From: Pseudomonadales bacterium
GTDB lineage: Bacteria > Pseudomonadota > Gammaproteobacteria > Pseudomonadales > JAHRWD01
Direction: 5' to 3'
Assembly: GCA_016763075.1 (NCBI GenBank)
Contig: JAESUM010000012.1
Span: forward strand, 1 to 45,347
DNA length: 45,347 nucleotides
Positions 19,439 through 45,347 of this stretch are shown in pieces. Each line of letters opens with the position of its first letter. Position 1 is the stretch's first letter. The notes under the pieces were generated by a model that was given only the letters and a program-made list of their open reading frames with translations, searched no databases and was not told where the DNA came from. The translations under genes were made by a program, and so were the position numbers.

Positions 19439-19902
19439 CCACGCAATACGCGAAAAATTGTCTTTGCCTCCCTCTTACCTCTCTTACCTCTCTTACCTCT
19501 CTTACCCGATCAGCTAAACACAACCTGCGGTGCTGCATCCTGCTCACCGTTGCACCCCAATGCCAGCCCTGAGCATACTTAGGTATTCTCAACTTTCGTG
19601 TAGTTGTGCCCCTCATGCGCAGCATCACCAAATTTTATACCTCTAGAATAGCCCTATTCAGTTCGCAGCTCCTCTTTGCTAGGCCCTAATCTGAAGCCGC
19701 AATTCATGCACCTTTTCAGTACCTCCAACAACCTGCCTTGAGCATCTCACGGCGGCTGCTCAATCGATCGTCTATAGTCAAAATTAGAACAACGCTGGGA
19801 AGCAATCAATACGACATGGTAGTGACGGTGACACACCACAAGCGTTTACAGAACGTCGAATATTGACCCAGGCCTTCGCAAGGCATTAGGAGACAAGCAG
19901 AG
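19439..19902. other. Intergenic region before the branched-chain operon
   Basis: It is 464 bases long with no credible gene. It starts with a four-fold 9-bp repeat (19472-19505) just after pdxH and should carry the promoter of the leucine dehydrogenase operon. I see no clear operator. AGGAGA lies before the ATG at 19903. Confidence 0.55.
19472..19505 (+). repeat. Tandem repeat (CTCTTACCT) about 3.8 copies
   Basis: Three exact copies of the 9-base unit CTCTTACCT and a partial fourth (CTCTTAC) lie 34 bases after the pdxH stop, pyrimidine-rich on the plus strand. It is probably a slippage-prone microsatellite. Confidence 0.9.
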
Positions 19903-35854: not shown

Positions 35855-35920
35855 ATGAGATTACGAAAAAGTAACGTGCAGGTTAACGGAGCTATCAAAT
35901 TAACGGGCCGGCAAATCAAC

Positions 35921-35950
35921 AGGCTATCAGGCTATCAGGCTATCAGGCTA
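35921..35950. repeat. Tandem repeat (AGGCTATC) 3.75 copies
   Basis: Three perfect copies of the 8-base unit AGGCTATC plus AGGCTA lie in the 109-base gap between ybaB and recR. It is a slippage-prone microsatellite that alters only spacer length. Confidence 0.9.
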
Positions 35951-36317: not shown

Positions 36318-38450
36318 TTAGCCCAACGGCTCTATCGAGTCGTAATCAATCTTCCCAGAAAATTGACTCACCAACTGTTGTACGTTCGGGTCTTGCTCAA
36401 TTTGTTCTACTGCCAATGCTTGGCGAGCGGCTTGGTTGGCCAGCTGAATCTGTGATGGGGTTTGGTATGCCCCAAGGCTAGCTACCACCTTATATTGCAC
36501 CCGAACCTCTCTGCCAATTTGCTGCGACAACGCCGTCGCGATTCGTTGCTCATTTTCAGGGTTCAAAAAGGTACTGTGGGTATTATCTAACAGCAGGAAA
36601 AAGCATTCGTCAGTCCGCGACTCAAGCGCGCTGTTTATAGCCAACATACGGCTCACGCCCTGCAATGAAACTCGCTCTATCATGTCGGCCCAGTCTTGAT
36701 CAAAAGGTGAACCACTCACCAGCTTTACTGCTGGCGTTTCACGCTTAACTGGCTGGAACACTTCTGGCTCTTCCGCTGCATTAAGTACAGAGTTAGATAC
36801 AGGATTAGCGGCTGAATTAAGCGCCGAATTAACCGCAAGCTGAGCTACTGGTTGACTCATAGCAACAGGGATATCTACCGGTGCAAGCTCGCCAAGTGGC
36901 GGGGCAGTTTCCATGCTTGGCGGCGACTCATTAACGCTAGGCGTTCGAGGTGTTGAAGGCGTATGAGGTGCTGCCATCGGCTTTTTATCACCTCCCGCTG
37001 AGGCCATGCTATTGGCCAACGCTTGCCTTGCAGAACGAACCACCCCTTGAGGCGCTGCGCCTTGAGCAGTAGCAGTAGCAGTAGCAGTAGCAGTAGCAGT
37101 AGCAGTAGCAGTAGCAGTAGCAGTAGTGTTACCAGCAACATCAGCGCGAGTCGAAGCCAGCGCAGCACTAAACTCAGTTGAGGTCGACTCTTCGATATTA
37201 TTATTATTTACTGAACTTTCAACAGCTTGAGAGGGTAATGAATTGTTATTTCGAGGCATTGAGGCTGTACCAGTGGCTGAGCTAATACCGCCTTGCTCCC
37301 CTAATCCAGGTTTACCTGGCGGCGTTGTGGCTGGCGCTGTCCCGCCCTTGCGCGAGCCAGATTGCGAGCCTGGCCGGAAGGCCAACATGCGCAACAGCAC
37401 CATCTCAAGTGCGTTTTTCATGTCGGGTGCATCGGGCAAATCACGCCTGCCGGTCAATGCAATTTGATAGAACAGTTGCAAGTCTTCAGGGCTAATACGG
37501 CCCGAAAGAGCTTGCATCACTTCGGGTTCCCATTGGTTCTCGTCAATGGCCCCTGGGACCATTTGAACCACCGCAAGCTGATGCAACCAACCAATAAGGT
37601 CCGCCAGCAAACTCGCATAATCTGAAGTATGTTCAGAAACCTGCTGAACGATACTTAAAATGGTGGGTGCGTCTTGATTGATCAATGCCTCTAACAGGTT
37701 TTGAACCACGTCTTTGCCAATCGTGCCGAGCATCAATCGCACGTCGGCATCCAGCACTTCTCCGGCACCAAAAGCCAGCGCTTGATCTGTAAGGCTAAGC
37801 GCATCGCGCATACTGCCATCAGCAGCTCGGGACAACAGTTTAAGCGCGGCGTCTTCGTATTTGATTTGCTCTTGACCCAATACCAATTCCAGCTGCCCAG
37901 CAATGGTCTCTGGAGTAATACGCTTGAGGTTAAACTGCAGGCAACGCGACAATATAGTAACAGGCAGTTTTTTAGGGTCTGTCGTTGCGAACAAAAACAT
38001 AACGTGGGGCGGCGGCTCTTCCAGTGTTTTTAACAGCGCGTTAAAACTGTGGTTGGAGAGCATGTGCACTTCATCGATTAGGTACACTTTGTAGCGACCA
38101 GCAGAAGGTGCGTACTGGACGTTTTCGAGCAGTTCGCGGGTATCTTCTACTTTGGTACGCGAGGCGGCATCTACTTCAATGAGATCAACAAACCGGCCTT
38201 CAGAAATCCCCACACAGGCAGAGCATTGCCCGCAGGGTTGGGAGGTAATACCGGTTTCACAGTTGAGACACTTTGCCAATACGCGCGCGATAGTGGTTTT
38301 ACCGACACCACGGGTGCCGGTAAATAAATATGCGTGATGCAACCGCTGGTTGTCGAGCGCATTAACCAATGCTCTAACCGCCAAATCTTGGCCTACGGTT
38401 TCAGAAAAACTGCGGGGGCGCCATTTACGGGCCAGAACCTGATGAGTCAT
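36318..38450 (-). CDS. dnaX: DNA polymerase III subunit tau (and gamma)
   Basis: Clamp-loader subunit, 710 residues from ATG 38450; the open frame extends to 38561 but only through the SRP RNA gene. The start MTHQVLARKWRPRSFSETVGQ is the family N-terminus. AAA+ motifs are GTRGVGKTT (Walker A), the zinc cluster CxxCETG-CGQCSAC, and VYLIDEVHML with PVTILSRC (sensor 1). The last domain binds DnaE and DnaB. A long low-complexity linker (about residues 360-590) contains ten Thr-Ala repeats from a perfect hexanucleotide repeat (37066-37125). I see no E. coli-like A AAA AAG frameshift signal in the linker; whether a short gamma is made is unclear. Confidence 0.96.
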   Translation of the reverse strand: MTHQVLARKWRPRSFSETVGQDLAVRALVNALDNQRLHHAYLFTGTRGVGKTTIARVLAKCLNCETGITSQPCGQCSACVGISEGRFVDLIEVDAASRTKVEDTRELLENVQYAPSAGRYKVYLIDEVHMLSNHSFNALLKTLEEPPPHVMFLFATTDPKKLPVTILSRCLQFNLKRITPETIAGQLELVLGQEQIKYEDAALKLLSRAADGSMRDALSLTDQALAFGAGEVLDADVRLMLGTIGKDVVQNLLEALINQDAPTILSIVQQVSEHTSDYASLLADLIGWLHQLAVVQMVPGAIDENQWEPEVMQALSGRISPEDLQLFYQIALTGRRDLPDAPDMKNALEMVLLRMLAFRPGSQSGSRKGGTAPATTPPGKPGLGEQGGISSATGTASMPRNNNSLPSQAVESSVNNNNIEESTSTEFSAALASTRADVAGNTTATATATATATATATATATAQGAAPQGVVRSARQALANSMASAGGDKKPMAAPHTPSTPRTPSVNESPPSMETAPPLGELAPVDIPVAMSQPVAQLAVNSALNSAANPVSNSVLNAAEEPEVFQPVKRETPAVKLVSGSPFDQDWADMIERVSLQGVSRMLAINSALESRTDECFFLLLDNTHSTFLNPENEQRIATALSQQIGREVRVQYKVVASLGAYQTPSQIQLANQAARQALAVEQIEQDPNVQQLVSQFSGKIDYDSIEPLG
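37066..37125 (-). repeat. Ten perfect copies of a hexanucleotide in dnaX
   Basis: The 6-base unit GCAGTA (plus strand) occurs ten times in a row without error. On the coding strand it gives (Thr-Ala)10 in the linker between the clamp-loader core and the DnaE/DnaB-binding domains of tau. Changes in copy number keep the reading frame and only alter linker length. Confidence 0.97.
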
Positions 38451-43093: not shown

Positions 43094-45347
43094 ATGACTG
43101 ATTTTTTCGCAAGCACCGTTCCCGGCCTCGAAGACATACTCACCGCCGAATTGCAGCAACTGCAGATTGATAATGCAAAAGTAACCCCTGGCGGAGTCTA
43201 TTTCAGTTCAGAGTTAGCGCAAGCTTATCAATTGCTATTGTGCTCACGCGTCGCCAACCGGCTGACCTTAGTGCTCGCACAAGAAAACTGCATGGGCGAC
43301 GATGATCTCTACAACATCACAGAATCTGTACCCTGGGAGGAGCACTTTAATATTCGCACCACCTTTGCGGTTACCTTCAACGGCAAAGCCGAATGGATTC
43401 GCAACAGTATGTTTCCAAGCTTGCGTATAAAGGATGCGGTGGTAGATCGGTTTCGTACCAAAACCGGTGATCGCCCAGATGTTGATTCCAAAACACCACA
43501 GCTTCGGGTAACCGGCTACCTTAAAAAAGATCGCCTCACCATAGGCTTAGATCTAACTGGCGATAGTTTGCACCGCCGCGGGTATCGTCAGCAGGCAGGT
43601 TCGGCGCCACTAAAAGAAAACCTAGCCGCCGCCATTATGTTGCGTTGCCGCTGGCCTGATCCAAAAAACGAGCAGGAATATCTGCTAGACCCGATGTGCG
43701 GCTCAGGAACGTTGTTAATAGAAGCAGGGTTAATTCTCACACAAACACCGCCGGGCTTATTAAGACCCAGCTTTGGTTTTGAGCACTGGAACGGTCATCA
43801 GCCTGATGTATGGCTTGAGCAAAAAGAGATCGCTACAGCAAAACAACAAACACCTAGTACCAATACACCGGTTATTTTTGGCTATGACCAAGACCCGCGT
43901 ATGGTTGCCATCGCTAAACAAAATATAAAAGCGGCTGGATTAGAAGCGCTTATTCAAGTCAAAGAAGCATCACTAGAAAACCTAGACCCTGGGCAATTTG
44001 AACAAATGGGCCAAGGGCTTTTGGTGACTAACCCACCCTACGGTGAACGAATTGGCGACCAAACAGAACTGGTCCCGCTCTACAAAAACCTAGGTATAAA
44101 AATAGCCAGCATGGTCGGCTGGCGCGCTAGTGTGTTTTCTGGGAACCCTGAACTGGTTCATGAAGTTAAAATACAGCAGCAACGTGCGAACAAAATGAAA
44201 AATGGAGCCCTACCCTGCGTATTGGCTCATTACAAACGCTCGGACGAAGAAACTGCACCGCGCCTAGCCAGCCGAGATGAAAAAAGCATTCCGAAGTTTT
44301 GCGACTCTTTAGCCAATCGCATTAAGAAAAATCAGCGCAATTTATCGAAGTGGGTGAAGAATAACGACATCCATTGCTACCGAATATATGACGCTGACAT
44401 CCCAGAGTTTTCTCTGGCTATTGACCGATACGAAGACTCTTTTTGTATTCAAGAGTACGCAGCGCCTAAAACCATTGACCCGGCAACCGCCCAAAAACGT
44501 TTAATGGGCGCAGTAAAAACAGTCGCCGCTATCTTTGATCTTGACCAAAAAGAGATTGCCGTTAAGCAACGTACCAAACAGCGCGGTGACAAACAGTACC
44601 AGCGCCTCGAACAAAAAAATGAGTTCTTCGCCGTGCGCGAAGGCTCTCATCAGTTTTTGGTTAATTTGTATGACTACTTGTATACAGGTTTATTTCTAGA
44701 TCACAGGCCCATGCGTGCAGCAATTGGCGACCGAGTCAAACAAGCCACACAACAGAACGCTCAAAAATCTGGCCGGCCTTTCCGGTTTTTAAACCTATTT
44801 TGCTACACCGCAACGGCAACGGTGTATGCTGCCAAAGCTGGTGCGGTGCAATCTGTTAGCGTAGATATGTCACACAACTATTGCAGCTGGGCGATCGATA
44901 ACCTTCAATTAAATGATATTGATACTCGCCAGCACCAAGTGATTCGCGCCGATTGTATCGTTTGGTTGGAGCAAAATAACGAACAATTCGACCTTATCTT
45001 TTTGGACCCACCTACTTTTTCAAACTCGAAGAAGATGGAAGATACTCTCGATATTCAGCGCGATCACGTTGAACTCATTAAATCAGCTGCCAAGAGACTG
45101 GCCCCAGGCGGTGTATTGCTATTCTCTAATAACTTTCGCCGGTTTAAGCTTGATGAAGCCGCGCTGGTGGAGTTTGAGATCAGCCACATTTCAAGCCAAC
45201 TGACCGACCCTGACTTTCAGCGCAACAAAAAAATACACCACTGTTGGGAAATCCGGTCGAACAACACTGTAGAAACAGCGGTTGATTCACCCGCACCCGC
45301 ACCCGCACCCGCACCCGCACCCGCACCCGCACCCGCACCCGCACCAA
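43094..45347 (+). CDS. rlmL: Bifunctional 23S rRNA methyltransferase RlmKL (3' end outside window)
   Basis: This fused enzyme makes m2G2445 (RlmL) and m7G2069 (RlmK) in 23S rRNA. The frame opens with MTDFFASTVPGLEDILTAEL and stays open to the window end (751 codons). N-terminal THUMP/ferredoxin-like part (about 1-165), then the RlmL methyltransferase with LLDPMCGSGTLLIEAG and NPPYGERIGD. The RlmK half has LNLFCYTATATVYAAKAGA and IFLDPPTFSNSKKM. After the usual C-terminal HHCWEIR a short acidic linker leads into nine Pro-Ala repeats from a perfect hexanucleotide repeat, an extension not found in E. coli RlmKL. I checked the frame at four points; no frameshift seen. The stop lies beyond the window. 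Confidence 0.95.
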   Translation, partial: MTDFFASTVPGLEDILTAELQQLQIDNAKVTPGGVYFSSELAQAYQLLLCSRVANRLTLVLAQENCMGDDDLYNITESVPWEEHFNIRTTFAVTFNGKAEWIRNSMFPSLRIKDAVVDRFRTKTGDRPDVDSKTPQLRVTGYLKKDRLTIGLDLTGDSLHRRGYRQQAGSAPLKENLAAAIMLRCRWPDPKNEQEYLLDPMCGSGTLLIEAGLILTQTPPGLLRPSFGFEHWNGHQPDVWLEQKEIATAKQQTPSTNTPVIFGYDQDPRMVAIAKQNIKAAGLEALIQVKEASLENLDPGQFEQMGQGLLVTNPPYGERIGDQTELVPLYKNLGIKIASMVGWRASVFSGNPELVHEVKIQQQRANKMKNGALPCVLAHYKRSDEETAPRLASRDEKSIPKFCDSLANRIKKNQRNLSKWVKNNDIHCYRIYDADIPEFSLAIDRYEDSFCIQEYAAPKTIDPATAQKRLMGAVKTVAAIFDLDQKEIAVKQRTKQRGDKQYQRLEQKNEFFAVREGSHQFLVNLYDYLYTGLFLDHRPMRAAIGDRVKQATQQNAQKSGRPFRFLNLFCYTATATVYAAKAGAVQSVSVDMSHNYCSWAIDNLQLNDIDTRQHQVIRADCIVWLEQNNEQFDLIFLDPPTFSNSKKMEDTLDIQRDHVELIKSAAKRLAPGGVLLFSNNFRRFKLDEAALVEFEISHISSQLTDPDFQRNKKIHHCWEIRSNNTVETAVDSPAPAPAPAPAPAPAPAPAP
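45288..45341 (+). repeat. Nine perfect copies of a hexanucleotide at the end of rlmKL
   Basis: The 6-base unit CACCCG occurs nine times in a row (followed by CACC) and codes for (Pro-Ala)9 in frame with rlmKL. The repeat runs to six bases from the right edge of the window, so its full extent and the C-terminus are not visible. Confidence 0.95.

Follow-up and report, generated by a model that had tools for sequence, protein, structure and literature searches.

The dnaX gene of a Pseudomonadales bacterium carries a perfect hexanucleotide array that encodes ten consecutive Thr-Ala pairs in the disordered linker of the DnaX protein. Replication slippage, in a tether able to accommodate added length, probably produced the array. 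The event is of an ordinary type but in an unusual location, and it falls within a recurrent pattern. The array lies in a stretch of 45,347 nucleotides, referred to below as the window. The window genome and the one congener compared with it are designated G000 and G001, respectively.

A hexanucleotide array within the DnaX linker

Coordinates of all features are given in Table 1. Tandem Repeats Finder described the array with a period of 6, 100% matches and a score of 124, the highest of 20 rows for the window. Our own scan of the window recovered the same array, with the same borders and no mismatch. The original prediction, ten error-free copies of a six-base unit in dnaX, was confirmed by both methods. 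The interval that it gave, 37066–37125, describes this array but is one base out of codon phase. On the minus strand, the units are read only as the codons ACT and GCT.

Table 1. Features described in the text, with positions in the window unless stated otherwise.
Feature	Position	Strand	Basis or remarks
dnaX, encoding 710-aa DnaX; ATG at 38450	36318..38450	minus	reading frame and Pfam
Linker, residues 363-580, predicted disordered	36711..37364	minus	pLDDT and Pfam
Perfect AGCAGT array, 10.3 copies	37065..37126	minus	Tandem Repeats Finder and own scan
(ACT GCT)10, encoding (Thr-Ala)10	37065-37124	minus	DnaX residues 443-462, codon-phase reading
T_AAA_AAG at linker Lys-Lys-Pro, residues 489-491	36981..36987	minus	motif reading
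Second perfect hexanucleotide array, CACCCG, 9.7 copies, Pro-Ala (CCC GCA)	45288..45345	plus	tail of methyltransferase gene, contig end
RlmL-like tail, Pro-Ala site	window 45288-45345; L147 8341-8394		congener codons CCT GCT
Perfect array of 8-bp unit CAGGCTAT, 3.9 copies	35920-35950		between two genes
Perfect array of 9-bp unit CTCTTACCT, 3.9 copies	19472-19506		no open frame >72 codons
FtsY pieces	L371, L366: ends of G000 contigs C90 and C56; L372, L365: end of G001 contig C16, start of C12

Chance does not account for these perfect tandem units. When the linker codons were shuffled 5,000 times, period-6 runs reached 19 bp at most, compared with 62 bp observed. Given the codon usage of the gene itself, ten identical Thr-Ala codon pairs have a probability of 1.8e-10. 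The array is an in-frame hexanucleotide simple sequence repeat (SSR). We also searched the 2,653,718-base genome, blind to codon choice, for four successive ACNGCN units. The dnaX array was the sole match. Codon-scrambled Thr-Ala runs of at least four pairs, which the original prediction had named as a sign that the protein rather than the DNA repeat is conserved, are therefore absent elsewhere in this genome. Single-strand folding of the array is nothing out of the ordinary (z 0.85 for the minus strand, -1.00 for the plus strand) and we discarded an unusual DNA structure. A different minus-strand frame remains open for 110 codons through the array (36875–37168) and contains around twenty leucines in a run. 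This frame is probably a by-product of the repeat unit.

The product belongs to the DnaX family and is of the tau type. Briefly, the AAA core, the lid (PF22608), domain III (PF12169) and the tau domain V (PF12170) all match Pfam models above cut-off in one frame. By these models, residue 357 is the last of domain III and residue 576 the first of domain V. Both these borders and a predicted structure place the array between the two domains, and so in the linker between clamp-loader core and tau C-terminal domains, as had been proposed. The pLDDT falls below 50 at residues 363–509 and 511–580, and the predicted linker has no helix or strand before residue 583. The model was built from 24 sequences, has a mean pLDDT of 65.4 and served as a sign of disorder only. 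Domain IV of tau is described as unstructured with flexible linkers (PMC11869525) and the tau linker is termed flexible (PMC4703070) in excerpts of these papers. In the window gene the linker comprises some 220 residues (218–224) and the array supplies 20 of them.

Arrays recur in dnaX linkers across the order

We surveyed dnaX genes for perfect arrays of at least 24 bp, with a period of 4–15 and at least 3.5 copies. The order sample comprised dnaX from 52 of 56 genomes, window included, mostly from different families. Three of the omitted genomes gave a fragmentary dnaX match (G003, G018 and G033) and one gave no match (G027). The named sample consisted of 80 loci retained from one scan, mainly Pseudomonas and near kin. 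Loci L025 and L055 are apparently one contig, which means that at least one gene is common to both samples. In the retrieval of dnaX, blastp at first overlooked 5 of 110 genes and phmmer missed none.

Arrays were present in 4 of the 52 order relatives, the window among them, and in 15 of the 80 named loci. The unit has six bases in 17 of these 19 carriers; L015 and L062 reach 24 bp by a nine-base unit only. Different carriers have different units, including CCGAGC, CCTGCA, TCCGGC, GGCTCC, CTGCAC and CCAGAG. In genes for which both ends of the linker could be set, every array lies inside it (18 genes with arrays of at least 20 bp, and L191, judged from its linker sequence). In L077, dnaX is truncated by the contig end. 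At the protein level, 19 dipeptide repeats of at least four units occur in 18 of 132 dnaX genes. Nine are Ala-Pro, eight are Glu-Pro and one is Glu-Gln; the Thr-Ala repeat of the window completes the set. We built a quick tree of the dnaX core (130 rows, L003 and L027 excluded), which has many long branches. The 19 array carriers need 17 changes on it. Nearly every array is therefore a separate event.

Linker length also varies. It ranges from 42 to 267 aa in the order sample (51 genes), and the median is 154 aa there and 197 aa in the named sample. The congener has no repeat at the site, and its dnaX linker spans 141 aa compared with 224 aa in the window gene. Outside the order, 52 genomes of the class sample had a match and 28 of their dnaX genes were read; of 30 loci returned, two were set aside as the window and as an order genome counted before. 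None of the 28 has an array of at least 20 bp. Domain V could be placed in 23 of the 28, with one further placement giving an impossible result, and the linkers of these 23 span 32–149 aa. The lengths are rough because the domain V model came from order proteins.

Short motifs were seen in the variable linkers as well. PPW or L/V-PW followed by D, E or N is found in 12 of 52 order genes and 62 of 80 named genes. The motif DEPP is found in 2 of 52 and 53 of 80, respectively.

Closely related species differ in their arrays. The core dnaX DNA of L070, L072 and L092 is 93–95% identical. A first array has 5.2 copies in L070 and 7.5 in L072, and is absent from L092. A second has 5.5 copies in both L072 and L092, and is absent from L070. 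Similarly, Glu-Pro units number four in L048, three in L040 and one in L042, with the cores of L040 and L042 94% identical to that of L048. The variation in copy number anticipated by the original prediction thus occurs among related species, in genera other than that of the window. The comparison supports quick turnover of such arrays.

Array density in dnaX and in other genes

The 80 named loci (1,027,137 bases) contain 22 arrays of at least 24 bp. Sixteen fall in 46.8 kb of dnaX linker, a density about 56 times that outside. The remaining six have a period of 7. For comparison, we looked for the FtsK, AceF and ZipA genes in every third of the 80 named genomes (27 in total). Perfect arrays of at least 20 bp were found in none of these 80 control genes (FtsK 0/26, AceF 0/27, ZipA 0/27) but in dnaX of 5 of the same 27 genomes (Fisher p 0.0008). 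At the 24 bp threshold, dnaX scored 4/27 (Fisher p 0.003). FtsK was missing in one genome and its frames were truncated by locus ends. The controls are three linker proteins among many, and FtsY and RlmL lay outside the 27-genome survey. Indeed, dnaX is not unique, because FtsY and RlmL bear such arrays in the genus of the window.

The window itself contains four arrays of at least 24 bp. Besides that in dnaX, one lies in the tail of a methyltransferase gene, which we take to be RlmL. Another separates two genes, presumably recR and ybaB (Table 1). The G000 sample has eight perfect arrays of at least 24 bp, with units of 5 to 9 bp, in 577,715 bases. A genome-wide excess in G000 was considered and discarded, as none was clear at either threshold. 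Arrays of at least 40 bp per Mb number 10.4 in the G000 sample, 9.0 in G001 and 9.7 in the 80 named loci. At 24 bp the corresponding values are 13.8, 9.0 and 21.4. The named loci were all chosen around dnaX and contig ends are plentiful in the G000 sample, and for these reasons neither provides a neutral background.

The frameshift site

In excerpts of two papers, A_AAA_AAG is given as the shift site of E. coli dnaX (PMC5009743, PMC3711429). Of the 52 order relatives, 31 have an in-frame A_AAA_AAG in the linker or beyond, as do 13 of the 80 named genes. Among the 28 genes of the class sample there is one A_AAA_AAG, close to the end of the gene. In 19 of the 31 order genes a single sense codon precedes the -1 stop. 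Across the order sample the heptamer takes the slippery frame 31 times, compared with 6 and 2 times in the other frames. The site presumably works in the relatives.

The window gene lacks the E. coli type of cassette, an in-frame A_AAA_AAG with a close -1 stop. Neither this heptamer nor any other in-frame slippery X_XXY_YYZ heptamer is present in window dnaX. Some 80 bases further downstream than the array there is a T_AAA_AAG sequence, followed by 14 sense codons before the first -1 stop. It is a probable eroded remnant of the A_AAA_AAG site of relatives. The frameshift route to gamma looks to have been lost in the genus of the window, because the window has T_AAA_AAG only and the linker of the congener has no Lys-Lys. 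The original prediction had linked the array to the region where E. coli makes gamma by frameshifting, and that part did not hold for this linker. With no in-frame slippery heptamer in window dnaX, a role for the array in frameshifting or gamma production was ruled out. With both samples pooled, arrays occur in 18 of 88 genes without A_AAA_AAG compared with 1 of 44 with it (Fisher p 0.004). That arrays follow loss of the frameshift site was nonetheless rejected: p is 0.29 and 0.11 for the separate samples, and independent tree pairs give no support.

Origin of the array

Slippage is the likely origin, in line with the original prediction. All ten Thr-Ala pairs use identical codons and therefore the DNA unit itself was multiplied. 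Across the dnaX set, 12 of the 19 dipeptide repeats are codon-perfect, compared with 0.05 expected. In the mechanism that we propose, a short Thr-Ala stretch in the disordered tau linker would have grown to ten identical six-base units. This growth would not have been removed because a six-base unit preserves the reading frame. The array would now act as a plain added spacer, with no switch-like role. We infer that it is neutral or nearly so. Lost mismatch repair was dismissed as a cause. For mutS and mutL, the two repair genes examined, models match above cut-off and without stops in both G000 and G001.

Some observations speak against plain neutrality. Arrays were found in dnaX of 5 of 27 genomes and in none of the FtsK, AceF or ZipA genes, and 17 of the 19 dipeptide repeats in the dnaX set contain proline, being Ala-Pro or Glu-Pro. 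Furthermore, other proteins of the genus keep a dipeptide while differing in codons. At the same place in the RlmL-like tail, Pro-Ala is encoded by CCC GCA in G000 and CCT GCT in G001. The Glu-Pro array of FtsY uses CCC GAA and CCA GAG, respectively. In both congeners FtsY is in two pieces at contig ends, each ending within the Glu-Pro array, and we infer that the two pieces per genome belong together. To judge from the codons, there may be selection at the peptide level in these two proteins. The same could apply to dnaX if an extended, low-complexity tether were favoured and slippage merely supplied and re-homogenised the coding DNA. However, the Thr-Ala array has no proline, is missing from the congener, shows no such conservation of the dipeptide in the genus and is not matched elsewhere in the genome by a codon-scrambled run. 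GC-rich codons and linker composition could also yield proline repeats unselected. Peptide selection is an unlikely explanation for the array. We also weighed an error of the draft genome, which comprises 95 contigs, with the copy number wrong or the repeat itself false. Perfect arrays of at least 24 bp, with periods of 6 to 13, lie within 200 bp of 7 of the 82 contig ends examined in G000, as expected if the assembler stopped at repeats, and repeats may account for many breaks of this assembly. However, the dnaX array is internal to its contig, within a single open frame, and like arrays exist in dnaX of genomes that are complete, P. aeruginosa PA7 (L073) among them. An assembly artefact is extremely improbable, although the exact copy number of ten is provisional.

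The original prediction further envisaged a tunable spacer between clamp loader, polymerase and helicase. In this reading, or in that of a contingency locus, copy-number slippage would adjust their spacing to advantage. The array is indeed perfect, in frame and suitably placed, and copy number varies among close Pseudomonas species. Nevertheless, we found no positive evidence for tuning. Ten copies shift the ideal size of a 224-aa chain by only 4.6–5.5%. The congener manages with no array and a much shorter linker, and linker lengths of relatives vary far beyond the slippage of a few units. In addition, the 6-bp unit lies within the frame and causes neither frame shift nor switching, so the array is not a phase-variable (contingency) locus. 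We regard a tunable spacer as very unlikely. The function that fits the linker best is that of a plain, length-tolerant tether, in which slippage probably produced the array.

Comparison with known repeats

The array is a further case of a known kind of repeat. Like hexanucleotide SSRs in other bacteria, dnaX arrays consist of perfect short units, turn over rapidly between close species and are likely to arise by slippage. Unlike switching SSRs, the dnaX array has a unit that is a multiple of three and cannot turn expression on and off. It also differs from the usual examples in being located in a replication gene rather than a surface or regulatory one. Alternating X-Pro spacers occur in TonB and in the E2 component of pyruvate dehydrogenase. 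These resemble dnaX arrays in placing an alternating dipeptide in a tether, and the arrays of relatives are mostly Ala-Pro or Glu-Pro. In contrast, (Thr-Ala)10 does not have proline at every second residue and would not be expected to form a stiff polyproline-like rod. The E2 parallel is further limited, since no perfect array was found in AceF from 27 relatives. Reports of repeats of 6–9 nucleotides are rare according to an excerpt of one paper (PMC4692102). With E. coli dnaX the window gene shares its identity, domain order and linker region, but not an in-frame A_AAA_AAG. The hexanucleotide array has no counterpart in excerpts of accounts of the E. coli gene (PMC5009743, PMC3711429). Among the open-licence papers inspected, judged by title or the start of the abstract, we found none on such arrays in dnaX.

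A broader reading treats the Pseudomonadales tau linker as a mutational hotspot exploited by selection. In-frame arrays would repeatedly arise, expand and disappear. Tether length or stiffness, fed by slippage, would thereby evolve fast and the Thr-Ala array would be one recent event. We consider this quite unlikely. If the wider pattern does not hold, the case still shows slippage feeding disordered linkers, and it cautions against inferring function from a single perfect repeat. If it does hold, a tether that couples the parts of an essential machine would be among the fastest-changing pieces of that machine, and nature would already offer graded tether lengths for testing.
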